Positions 1,551-5,459 of a stretch of 64,000 nt of DNA are shown here, piece by piece. Within the stretch, counting starts at the first letter, position 1, and the number at the start of each line of letters is the position of its first letter. Position numbers and translations under genes: made by a program. Below the pieces are notes generated by a model, which searched no databases, was not told the DNA's origin, and was given only the letters and a program-made list of their open reading frames with translations. This DNA is from Tetramitus jugosus (taxonomy: Eukaryota > Heterolobosea > Eutetramitea > Acrasida > Vahlkampfiidae): assembly GCA_937625935.1 (NCBI GenBank), contig OW569391.1, positions 124,001-188,000 of the forward strand, given 5' to 3'.

Positions 1551-2803
<1,253 letters not shown>

Positions 2804-3359
2804 ATAAAGATTTTTTGTTTGAGAAAAAAGAAGCAAGATGTGGGTCGATCAAAAAACATCAGAATCCATACACAAGTGTTAATCATCCACAATACTGTGA
2901 ATTCTCGGTTACAAGCAACACTTTCGTGCTTCAACACGCCACATTGCTTGTATACAAAAACACACTTGGATGATGAGTCATCCACACGTTGTCATTAAAC
3001 AAGTTCTGAGTCAAAGATGCAATACTTGGTAGAGTTTCATATTGGAGTCTCCTCCAGTAGATGATTTCGGTTGTTGTGTGTATTGGTTCAGAGGATGGAC
3101 GATGGACGTTTTCTTTCAAGACGCGAGATTGAACCACCCAAGAAGAAATAAAGCATTTGCCAAACGAGTAACGTCATCTTTCTGTTGTCTAAATCTCAGT
3201 TTCCTCTAAGCTGCGGAATTGGTGCAGTTGTAAAAATTTCCGTTGAGACTGTCTTTACAACGGCAACGGCCATCTTCCTCGGTTTAAAAAGCGCTGTCTT
3301 TTTCGCTGTTTGATTCAACTCACACATCAAATACAACACACAACAAATACAATAACATT
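2804..3359. promoter_or_regulatory. Fanzor upstream region
   Basis: About 550 bp between the GMD stop and the Fanzor start. I see no credible coding frame on either strand. The last 60 bases are a CA-rich leader (repeated ACAAC/ATACAA) like the 5' leaders of other genes here, with a TTTAAAAAG element near 3280 that may be part of a core promoter. If the 13-bp repeat marks the element ends, this is its left end and carries its promoter. No clear terminal inverted repeat was found. Confidence 0.35.
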
Positions 3360-5279
3360 ATGCCACGAGGCGTGCCTAAGGACGGCAAGAGAAAGAGAAA
3401 GAGAGAGACTGTCAAAAAGGATGAATACTCATCACATTACGTGGTCAAGGTCGGTCTGAAGTCTCTATTGTTGCATCATCCGACTTTGCTACCGATCATA
3501 CAAACTCGTGCTCTGGATATGACGAAGGTTGCTCTTAGAATCACTCGATTCATAAATGTGTTCGTGTTGAGATACTTGGAGAACGATAGCAACATTCCTC
3601 CATTGGATCAAGGATTTATTCAACGGATTGGCTCTGTCTTGTTTGGACCAAAATCAGAAACAAGAGACGGTAATGTTGCCAATGAATCTGTTAATATGGA
3701 TGATGTCATAGTCAAACTCAGAAAGCTTTATGAGAATTTTTCCACATCCATCAATTACGTTGCAAAGTCTCTCAAGGTCAACATCTCCAACATGCTCAAG
3801 TTCACGCTTGAACAAAGACTGAGAAAGTATCTGATAGTCAGAATGAGTCAATTGTGTTCGGATCCATCTATCCCAAGATCCGAATACAGAAGGGTCGTTG
3901 AATACATTATCAGAAGGTTGACATTCAAAACTCCAGTCTATGACTTCATCAAACTGCCTCCTAGGGGGTTGATTGAAGTCATTCCTGTATTAATTCATGA
4001 GGTCAAAACACTTGCTGCTGTTGGAACCGATGAAGTTATTGATGAATCTTTTGTGGATAACAACACTAACAATATGCTGAAGTTTTACTGGCATGTACAA
4101 CAATTTCTGACAAACAATGGTACAAAATCATTTGCTCTGCTTCCGTTGTCTCGCTTCAAATGCAGATGCATGGAGATTGGGACAGAAGAATTAGTTAAGA
4201 TGCTCCAACGGGCAACATATCCAAATAGAAGAAAGAAAAATGACATTCGTGAACCGATAGAATTCAAATACAATCTGAAGTGTTTGAACACCGGCGAAAA
4301 GATGATTCAGATTGATTCTATCAGAACTGACGGTATTCAAGCCTCTGTTGTTATCAGACATCAACTCATTGGCAATCACAAGAACAATAAGGCAGAGAAA
4401 TCTAAAGGCGAGAAACAAGCAAAGAAGATGAAGAAAGAAACAACTATTGTTGATCAAGATGCAGATTACTTGATTGGTATCGATCCTGGTATTGTCACAT
4501 TGATGAGTTGTGCTGATTCAGATGGTAAAAAGTGGGAGTTCTCCAATAAGGCATACAGACGACTGTCTCATCATTCACAGAACACCAAACGTTTGTTGAA
4601 ATACAAAGCAAAATGGAACACGAAAACTGGAAAAGATTTAGATGAACTCCATAACTCGATCAAACAAGCCAGTGTATCGACAAGTGATCTGTTTATCGAA
4701 CACATTGATTCTGTTTTGAAAGTCGAAGATGACTTGCTTGGTTTTTATTGCACTCCAAAGGTGAAGAGACTGAATTGGGACAGCTATATTATGAGAGACA
4801 AAACAATTGCTGGAGTAATGAATGATTTTCACAAAAGAGCAAATGGAAGAAAGATGGTCATTGGCATGGGCAATGCTGGTTTCAAAAATAGTTACAGAGG
4901 ACATGCTTCAACGCCCAAGGGCAAACTGTTGAAGAAACTGAATGAACGATTTGAAGTGAAAATGATTGACGAATTCATGACCAGCCAAAAATGTTGTGCT
5001 TGCCATTCCCATTTGAAGCCAGTCAAGCACAAACGAATGGACAAGAAAGGTGTATCGGCAATCTCTATTGTACGAGGAGTTAAACAGTGTGCAACCACTA
5101 AATGTTTAGTGACTCACAATAGAGACATCAATGCGGCCAAGAACATGCTCCATCTACTGAGAACAGAAATGGATGGACAGTCACGTCCCGATGCCTTCAA
5201 GAGGAAGAAAAAGGTCGCAAAAGAATTAATCAAAATGGTGGAACACCTCCAAGGCTCACTCCATCAAGCTGCTATGTAA
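3360..5279 (+). CDS. Fanzor (eukaryotic TnpB-like RNA-guided nuclease)
   Basis: A 639-residue, intronless protein of the TnpB/Fanzor superfamily (RuvC-like nucleases directed by a guide RNA encoded next to the gene). The N-terminus has a nuclear-localisation-like basic run (about residues 9-16). Residues 30-330 are helical with no obvious motif. The C-terminal RuvC/zinc part shows the first catalytic Asp in GIDPG (D375), the VIGMGNAGF segment, then VKMIDEFMTSQKC with a Glu at 538, a CxxC (C545/C548), a second Cys pair (C577 and C582), and the last catalytic Asp in NRDINAAKN (D589). The GMGNAGF block lacks the usual RuvC-II Glu, so the Glu in MIDEF is the likely substitute; a relocated Glu is known in Fanzors and some TnpBs. 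All key residues appear present, so the enzyme looks intact. No transposase gene lies beside it. It starts with ATG after a CA-rich leader. Confidence 0.92.
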   Translation: MPRGVPKDGKRKRKRETVKKDEYSSHYVVKVGLKSLLLHHPTLLPIIQTRALDMTKVALRITRFINVFVLRYLENDSNIPPLDQGFIQRIGSVLFGPKSETRDGNVANESVNMDDVIVKLRKLYENFSTSINYVAKSLKVNISNMLKFTLEQRLRKYLIVRMSQLCSDPSIPRSEYRRVVEYIIRRLTFKTPVYDFIKLPPRGLIEVIPVLIHEVKTLAAVGTDEVIDESFVDNNTNNMLKFYWHVQQFLTNNGTKSFALLPLSRFKCRCMEIGTEELVKMLQRATYPNRRKKNDIREPIEFKYNLKCLNTGEKMIQIDSIRTDGIQASVVIRHQLIGNHKNNKAEKSKGEKQAKKMKKETTIVDQDADYLIGIDPGIVTLMSCADSDGKKWEFSNKAYRRLSHHSQNTKRLLKYKAKWNTKTGKDLDELHNSIKQASVSTSDLFIEHIDSVLKVEDDLLGFYCTPKVKRLNWDSYIMRDKTIAGVMNDFHKRANGRKMVIGMGNAGFKNSYRGHASTPKGKLLKKLNERFEVKMIDEFMTSQKCCACHSHLKPVKHKRMDKKGVSAISIVRGVKQCATTKCLVTHNRDINAAKNMLHLLRTEMDGQSRPDAFKRKKKVAKELIKMVEHLQGSLHQAAM

Positions 5280-5368
5280 ATCCCGATTTTGTAGGAGCGT
5301 TAAGGTGTCTTATCGGGAAACCATAATTTTTTTATTATGGCTTGATCGACAGTAGACCGCCACCTTAA
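5270..5368 (+). ncRNA. Putative Fanzor guide-RNA scaffold (fRNA/omega-RNA)
   Basis: Immediately after the Fanzor stop codon the sequence can fold compactly. A 7-bp stem forms between 5281-5287 and 5312-5318. A 7-bp hairpin with a six-T loop forms between 5321-5327 and 5334-5340. An 8-bp pairing links 5300-5307, inside the first stem's loop, with 5361-5368. The last pairing crosses the first stem, so it is a pseudoknot, the hallmark of TnpB omega-RNAs, which lie at the 3' end of the gene and run into the flanking DNA that acts as guide. All pairings are perfect Watson-Crick. By analogy the guide would begin near 5369. Transcription is not shown; the position and topology are the evidence. Confidence 0.65.
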
Positions 5369-5377
5369 GTGTTGCGT
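5365..5377 (+). repeat. Right copy of 13-bp direct repeat flanking Fanzor
   Basis: Identical to 2791-2803. Its first four bases (TTAA) form part of the pseudoknot strand of the putative guide RNA. The remaining nine would be the first bases of the guide if the scaffold ends at 5368. Confidence 0.5.
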
Positions 5378-5459
5378 TGTTTGATAAAATTATTTTACTG
5401 GTCCTGAGTTTTTTCGGCGCCAACTCAAAACTACAGACAAACAGAATCACAAACAGCGA

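Follow-up and report, generated by a model that had tools for sequence, protein, structure and literature searches.

Results and discussion

The Fanzor locus

We analysed a stretch of 64,000 nucleotides from Tetramitus jugosus (positions 124,001 to 188,000 of contig OW569391.1, assembly GCA_937625935.1; hereafter the window), which carries a gene for a Fanzor, a eukaryotic RNA-guided nuclease, within a left-truncated copy of a transposon. All features are on the forward strand and positions are counted from the first base of the window. The Fanzor coding sequence runs from 3360 to 5279 and is open over its entire length (639 aa). It is followed by a minimal candidate omega-RNA (reRNA) scaffold at 5277-5368, predicted from its position, stems and pairing, of which the 5' end may fall inside the coding sequence. 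At its 3' end the scaffold takes in the right terminal inverted repeat GACCGCCACC and TTAA (5355-5368); the TTAA at 5365-5368 is the right copy of a target-site duplication. After this invariant right end comes host DNA, the putative guide (GTGTTGCGTTGTTTGATAAAAT, 5369-5390), of which the start is clear and the end is not. To the left of the gene, the 5' region of the element (2804-3359) lacks the first ~43 nt of intact copies, including the left terminal repeat. At the truncated left junction TTAA and the first 9 nt of the element's own guide are repeated (TTAAGTGTTGCGT, 2791-2803), forming a direct repeat of 13 nt identical to 5365-5377.

A sequence-only reading of this DNA had placed a Fanzor and its RNA at 3360-5377. 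That extent holds the open reading frame (ORF) and the RNA region, but neither the left portion of the element (2801-3359) nor the whole guide. The Fanzor with a scaffold-like 3' region was upheld, and the proposed pseudoknot stays a candidate; what had been overlooked is that the element has transposon ends, belongs to a family of copies and carries a repeat at its left junction. The claimed intact ORF, the acidic residues D375 and D589, the candidate E538 and the two cysteine pairs (545/548 and 577/582) were all found as described.

D375 is part of the RuvC I motif DPG (375-377), E538 lies in DEFMTSQKC and D589 in NRD. The DPG motif, E538, D589 and the four cysteines were identical in all 6 aligned sequences (the window protein and five homologues, including a fragment). 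E538 is an alternative glutamate, with six residues between it and C545; according to the text of PMC10711439, such a glutamate, located some six residues ahead of the zinc finger, is a Fanzor signature, and DPG is likewise a criterion. The C4 zinc finger with the RD motif (TNB domain) matched PF07282 with 39.1 bits, against a Pfam cut-off of 26.3. With the NCBIfam model guided_TnpB the score was 39 bits, far under the curated cut-off of 100 for bacterial TnpB, and the score for PF01385 was also below its cut-off.

In the PDB, SpuFz1 was the sole significant match, covering residues 129-616 with the single sequence (E = 4e-15) and 128-616 with a profile (E = 1.5e-22); LaTranC was found at E = 0.07 across 28 residues. 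Judged by its sequence, the protein appears Fanzor1-like, an assignment that rests on SpuFz1 as the only significant PDB hit, and it behaved as a Fanzor would in every test that could be run. An AlphaFold2 model built from 6 sequences was too poor to be used (mean predicted local distance difference test score 43). Searches of protein databases yielded 5, then 8 homologues, labelled 'hypothetical protein', 'transposase' or nothing, and no relatives were found in viral contigs. The ratio of non-synonymous to synonymous substitution rates (dN/dS) of the window gene was 0.15-0.17 in comparison with 18 of the 19 other full-length copies (dS 0.40-1.78), and 0.28 in comparison with the close copy L032, showing that the Fanzor is under purifying selection.

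Ends and copies of the element

The genome searched was the window's own assembly (26.3 Mb, 56 contigs), one collapsed assembly; the counts obtained are lower bounds. The TNB domain was detected in at least 27 places, all of which were fetched with their flanks, and 20 of the 27 contained a Fanzor ORF of more than 600 aa. Two types of element ends could be distinguished. Type A copies with both ends read TTAA-GGTGGCGGTC or GGTGGCCGTC at the left and GACCGCCACC-TTAA at the right, the intact form being TTAA-GGTGGC...GCCACC-TTAA, in which the right terminal repeat is the exact inverse of the left end. Type B copies with both ends read TTAA-GGATGTAGTTCG...CATCC-TTAA (also given as TTAA-GGATGTAG...CATCC-TTAA). 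The Fanzor copies are terminal-inverted-repeat elements with a TTAA target-site duplication. A pattern for type A ends, which treats left and right ends alike, gave 44 hits in the genome at no more than one mismatch (TTAAGGTGGCGGTC; 34 exact, 10 with one mismatch) and 4 in the control. The scaffold gave 36 matches, some of them partial, and among 41 loci chosen by TNB, scaffold or end matches the right end was found in 40.

Since the element ends in GACCGCCACC-TTAA, the 3' strand of the candidate pseudoknot, CACCTTAA (5361-5368), is made up of the right terminal repeat and the TTAA target duplication. Location of a terminal repeat and target duplication within the RNA scaffold is known for Fanzor1, as stated in PMC10711439. 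The guides that follow differ between copies, with the exception of the pair L052/L053. These two right-end relics lie on different contigs in nearly identical flanking DNA, so one insertion was probably duplicated along with host sequence. When flanks were rejoined over one TTAA, ORFs of 366, 297 and 348 codons spanned the joint at 3 of 17 sites, and the other 14 gave 29-168 codons; this comparison was made without a control.

Target repeats at truncated left junctions

In the window copy, which has no left repeat, element sequence begins at 2801 (position 4852 of locus L029), approximately 44 nt inside the intact left end; blastn against the intact copies L010 and L018 likewise begins at element position 44. 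The bases CGT at 2801-2803 are common to target and element and form a microhomology at the junction. Besides the window copy (L029), 15 copies with a right end but no left end could be traced to their left junction and are left-truncated (L019, L021, L024, L025, L030, L031, L032, L040, L042, L043, L044, L046, L047, L050 and L051); the relics L052 and L053, with untraced left junctions, are outside this set of 16.

Five of the 16 contain a TTAA-anchored repeat of their own guide at the left junction or at most 7 nt from it. The repeat consists of TTAA and 9 nt in the window, 11 nt in L046 and 12 nt in L025. In L040 it is TTAA and 20 nt with two mismatches (9 exact), and in L051 TTAA and 22 nt of target with one base deleted (8 exact before the deletion). 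None of 240 mismatched left/right pairs had an exact anchored match of 12 nt, the longest being 8 nt (Fisher p = 5e-7), and when anchoring was not required, flanks that do not belong together (313 by up to 304 nt) matched over 12 nt at most. The guide bases retained at the left junctions thus number 9-22, with none beyond about 22 nt. Apart from the CGT of the window, the joints show a microhomology (GTC) in L046 and six filler bases in L025. A 9-nt repeat in L047 (ACATGTCCA), starting 16 nt into the guide, was no better than those of mismatched pairs and was not counted. The anchored repeats are scars that can be read directly in the assembly; cleavage and homing are what we infer from them.

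Polarity and the base next to TTAA

Four of the 44 type A pattern hits (L063-L066) had no element homology and were excluded from the end counts, and L048 was read at its right end only. All 12 type A left ends were paired with a right end. The 28 type A right ends comprised 12 that were paired, 14 without a left end and 2 with a changed or damaged left end (L034 and L045). Right-only copies outnumbered left-only copies 14 to 0 (p = 1.2e-4) in type A and 16 to 2 in types A and B together, excluding the relics L052 and L053 (two-sided binomial p = 0.0013).

The base before the left TTAA was A or T in all 28 sites read (T in 18, A in 10), compared with a background of 0.60 (p = 7e-7). This background was 60% in the window outside the element (160 sites, strands pooled) and 61% in 213 flank sites. 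After the right TTAA, A or T was present in 13 of 26 sites, so that the preference is one-sided. Of the right ends counted, 38 finish in TTAA, and every one of them has C as the preceding base, found in the window at 5364; L048 reads TTGG. The sequences fit a motif WTTAA (W is A or T) that the empty site would possess and that is absent from the element's own right end. In the window the putative target-adjacent motif (TAM) on the left, empty-site side is ATTAA (2790-2794), and the C at 5364 is expected to protect the RNA gene of the element itself from being targeted.

A proposed model of RNA-guided homing

We propose that the Fanzor cuts the empty allele, under direction of its guide, at WTTAA followed by the guide sequence, and that the element is then copied in during repair, starting from the right and in some cases stopping short; we put the probability of this at roughly two in three. 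The 3' part of the element would be transcribed as an omega-RNA, with a scaffold ending in the right terminal repeat and TTAA and with the flanking host DNA as guide. The ribonucleoprotein would recognise WTTAA and the guide sequence, a site that would be complete only where the element is absent, on an empty allele or sister, and would cut about 20 nt from the motif. Published Fanzor cuts lie 9-21 nt from the motif according to the text of PMC10432273 (SpuFz1 16-21, GtFz1 14-17, NlovFz2 19, MmeFz2 9-18). The break would then be repaired from the filled chromosome. Copying is expected to start at the right break end, the only one with full homology to the donor past the element's right end, with this end invading and copying leftwards through the RNA gene and then the nuclease gene. 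If copying stopped early, the new strand would be end-joined to the left break end, still bearing TTAA and 9-22 nt of target. The outcome would be a copy truncated on the left in which TTAA and part of its own guide are repeated, as present in the window.

TTAA with 15 nt of the window guide gave 17 hits in the genome at up to 3 mismatches, all but its own with 3 mismatches, and a control pattern gave 31. Lacking any other perfect match in the genome, the guide would find its natural target in the empty allele of its own locus. Taken more broadly, the element probably represents natural, gene-drive-like homing by an RNA-guided nuclease in a eukaryotic nuclear genome, a claim that we make with slightly less confidence than that of the guided cut. 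Each new TTAA insertion would re-programme the guide, the element-free allele would be cut at WTTAA and guide and filled from the right end, the C before the right TTAA would spare the element's own RNA gene, and one-sided repair would also generate the left-truncated copies that retain the RNA end.

Several observations weigh against this interpretation. Eleven of the 16 left-truncated copies have no anchored repeat, for which further trimming of left ends must be invoked, and a 13-nt match to TTAA and guide in L021 was dropped as a junction repeat because its position is internal to the element. There are also two left-only copies, L061 and L062. The p-values treat insertions as independent, and the empty target and the donor are not seen in one collapsed assembly. 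No transposase with these ends was found: neither of two end-pattern searches had a hit at the 12 places in the genome that match PF13843 (piggyBac-type; C7, C18, C30, C34 and others), and Sola-type transposases were not searched for.

A rival explanation is that this is an ordinary cut-and-paste TTAA element, of piggyBac or Sola type, in which the Fanzor is a passenger and insertions and truncations arise by transposase and abortive gap repair, leaving no trace of the Fanzor. TTAA duplications and short inverted repeats, which are both present, would suit such a transposase, as would the 12 PF13843 matches, and the right junction of L062 (near position 2567) begins precisely with TTAA, which is expected after repair of a transposase break. 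However, none of the 12 PF13843 places had a hit of the end patterns, and at 4 of them, which were read, there were no TTAA-flanked inverted repeats. A transposase break would moreover leave TTAA at the left end and not TTAA with 9-22 nt of downstream target, while a break up to about 22 nt into the target, counted from the motif, would leave TTAA and part of the target, which matches the five junctions. If transposition of this kind were the cause, right-only copies should also not predominate, and the bases on the two sides of TTAA should show the same preference; the data show otherwise on both counts. We therefore consider this explanation improbable for the scars. L062 may mirror a transposase break, in which case both kinds of break may be recorded among the copies.

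Some form of RNA-templated homing was also considered, in which a Fanzor cut is followed by reverse transcription of a transcript of guide, scaffold and ORF from the cut strand, as in retrohoming of a long interspersed nuclear element (LINE) or group II intron. Target-primed reverse transcription classically gives left truncation with target duplications of variable length, which is the picture seen here, and pairing of the guide would set the cut 3' end on the transcript. Yet element sequence in the window copy begins with a TATA-like stretch some 44 nt from the intact left end, a position that transcripts would probably not cover, and a matching left end accompanies 12 of the 28 type A right ends. 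There was no poly-A tract at the right junctions examined and all five repeats begin exactly at TTAA, by which LINE-type insertion is disfavoured. RNA-templated homing thus has very little probability in our view.

The RNA scaffold and its candidate pseudoknot

The two stems claimed in the sequence-only reading, 5281-5287 with 5312-5318 (stem 1) and 5321-5327 with 5334-5340 (stem 2, a hairpin at 5321-5340), are exact and follow directly after the stop codon. The same holds for an 8-bp crossing pairing of TTAAGGTG (5300-5307, core TTAAGG), located in the loop of stem 1, with CACCTTAA at the right end. As to the omega-RNA itself, the claim is borne out insofar as the scaffold-like region ends exactly at the transposon boundary and is followed by a copy-specific guide; the pseudoknot is unproven. 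In 20,000 dinucleotide shuffles of the 81-nt stretch, a complement of all 8 bases of CACCTTAA turned up at any position in 42, and a 6-mer complement in 995. The crossing pairing is therefore not easily put down to chance. Taken alone, 5277-5360 had an unremarkable fold energy (z = -1.05; 26 of 200 shuffles folded equally well), and 5200-5450 had no match to an Rfam family at E up to 1.

Covariation, the absence of which the earlier reading had named as refuting the pairings, was counted on 10 of 30 distinct scaffolds and could not decide the pairing. A single compensatory cell was found overall, in stem 1, and 93 of 500 shuffles did equally well. Six of the pseudoknot pairs (the core TTAAGG/CCTTAA) never vary in these 10 rows, and the outer two deviate by unpaired cells only. 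Because the core is invariant and its right-hand strand is fixed by the terminal repeat and TTAA, covariation is uninformative for the pseudoknot.

It is possible, though we doubt it, that TTAAGGTG is a copy of a repeated transposase-binding motif placed inside the end, and that the omega-RNA folds without the crossing pairing. This touches the RNA only and is compatible with homing. Apart from the uninformative covariation, it agrees with the SpuFz1 RNA, which is described without a pseudoknot in PMC10432273, and with Yoon et al., in whose text (PMC10711439) the pseudoknot is considered lost in Fanzor1. In the genome, most of the 5' strand is lost in L009, a copy with both ends and a 637-aa ORF, in L013 it is missing together with stem 1, and in L047 it is altered to TTAAGTAT. 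Against a binding motif, type B copies have their end changed to TTAAGGATG and keep the internal TTAAGGTG, showing the internal motif to be independent of the end. The diverged L034 and L035 retain the core TTAAGG, and the position in the stem 1 loop agrees with that of the TnpB pseudoknot as given in PMC10711439. In sequence comparison, type B copies and L034/L035 favour a pairing of six to eight bases; L009, L013 and L047 speak against it.

Neighbouring genes and variation among copies

The guide is flanked by a GDP-mannose dehydratase gene (PF16363, E = 1.6e-97) on one side and, on the other, by a gene whose product combines CNH, Clathrin and Vps39 zinc-finger domains. In two cases the upstream frame ends within the TTAA target, namely the window (CAT TAA, the stop codon of the GDP-mannose dehydratase, within 2790-2794) and L051 with L072 (L051 by eye). 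With the stop codon inside the TTAA target, the coding sequence is spared by the insertion. At guide position 1, the 39 right ends have G in 16, T in 12, A in 10 and C in 1.

Ten pairs of copies were compared bin by bin (150 columns each). Identity in the two bins next to the right end, comprising the RNA region and ~200 nt of coding sequence, was 86-100% (at least 95% except for three terminal bins with the type B copy L012), and in bins deeper in the coding region it was 59-100%. In L010, L012, L023, L027 and the window (5070-5368), the last ~300 nt are nearly identical despite up to 41% coding divergence in places, and several of those pairs also share a stretch just upstream of the start codon, giving a mosaic with concerted ends. 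Our interpretation is that sequence has been exchanged repeatedly, starting at the right end; constraint on the RNA could contribute. Related Fanzor genes with near-identical RNA stems occur with both types of terminal repeat (L012, L013, L016, L017 and L022 versus L010 and L026), the 3' ~26 nt of the scaffold being swapped as a block between types A and B with CCTTAA retained. Two long versions (L009, 5211-5957 on the reverse strand; L027, 2442-3086) have captured a piece of the retromer gene VPS35 (PF03635, E = 1.7e-51 and 2.4e-44, respectively) between the left end and the Fanzor gene.

Comparison with known systems

Among known systems, one close likeness is to the Spu-1 elements of Spizellomyces punctatus, which encode SpuFz1 and, in the text of Saito et al. 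2023 (PMC10432273), also have many copies with inverted repeats, the RNA right after the stop codon and RNA loci without a Fanzor gene. They differ in their TAM (CATA), 30-nt repeats and RNA without a pseudoknot, compared with TTAA ends and a candidate pseudoknot here; junction footprints for Spu-1 elements are not reported in the available sections of that paper. GtFz1 of Guillardia theta is a Fanzor1 with the TAM TTAA(N) (PMC10432273, PMC11423790), like that inferred here, with the proviso that the text of PMC11423790 swaps the TAM order of two Fanzors at one place and calls TTAA the GtFz1 TAM at another. Unlike the element described here, GtFz1 is reported without inverted repeats, and N replaces the third catalytic D, which is D589 here. 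NlovFz2 of Naegleria lovaniensis, described in PMC10432273, is an Fz2 with the TAM CCG, a blunt cut after nt 19 and a disordered N-terminus of 96 aa, and no inverted repeats or transposase were seen there. Given the match to SpuFz1 and the TTAA-flanked elements in T. jugosus, the Fanzor here is, as far as could be tested with NlovFz2 compared by description only, a different enzyme from this characterised Naegleria one.

Retention of IS200/IS605 elements by TnpB ('cut-and-copy') and a plasmid gene drive, as presented in PMC11870625, resemble the proposed mechanism in that the guide is the element's own flank, the target is the empty site and the occupied state is favoured. These systems are bacterial and use a single-strand transposase, whereas the element here has TTAA on both sides and would consequently need the C/W difference to escape self-cutting. 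It shares TTAA duplication and short inverted repeats with piggyBac-type elements; unlike these, it has no PF13843 match in its copies or at its ends. Some Sola elements duplicate TTAA, and a Sola-type carrier is possible. Fanzor1 carriers according to Bao and Jurka are Helitron, Mariner, IS4, Sola and MuDr, and TTAA is not mentioned in the available text of that paper (PMC3627910).

If the crossing pairing is real, the RNA of this element retains a TnpB-like feature thought to be lost in Fanzor1. The role of Fanzor nuclease activity is stated to be unknown in the text of Saito et al. (PMC10432273), where help to transposons like that given by TnpB is only proposed, and we found no report of junction scars of this kind in the openly licensed PMC literature, as far as its accessible text goes. 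If our interpretation is true, the scars would be direct historical evidence of a eukaryotic RNA-guided nuclease cutting its own site in the unoccupied state; a motif, a cut position and a rule by which the element protects itself can be predicted from them.

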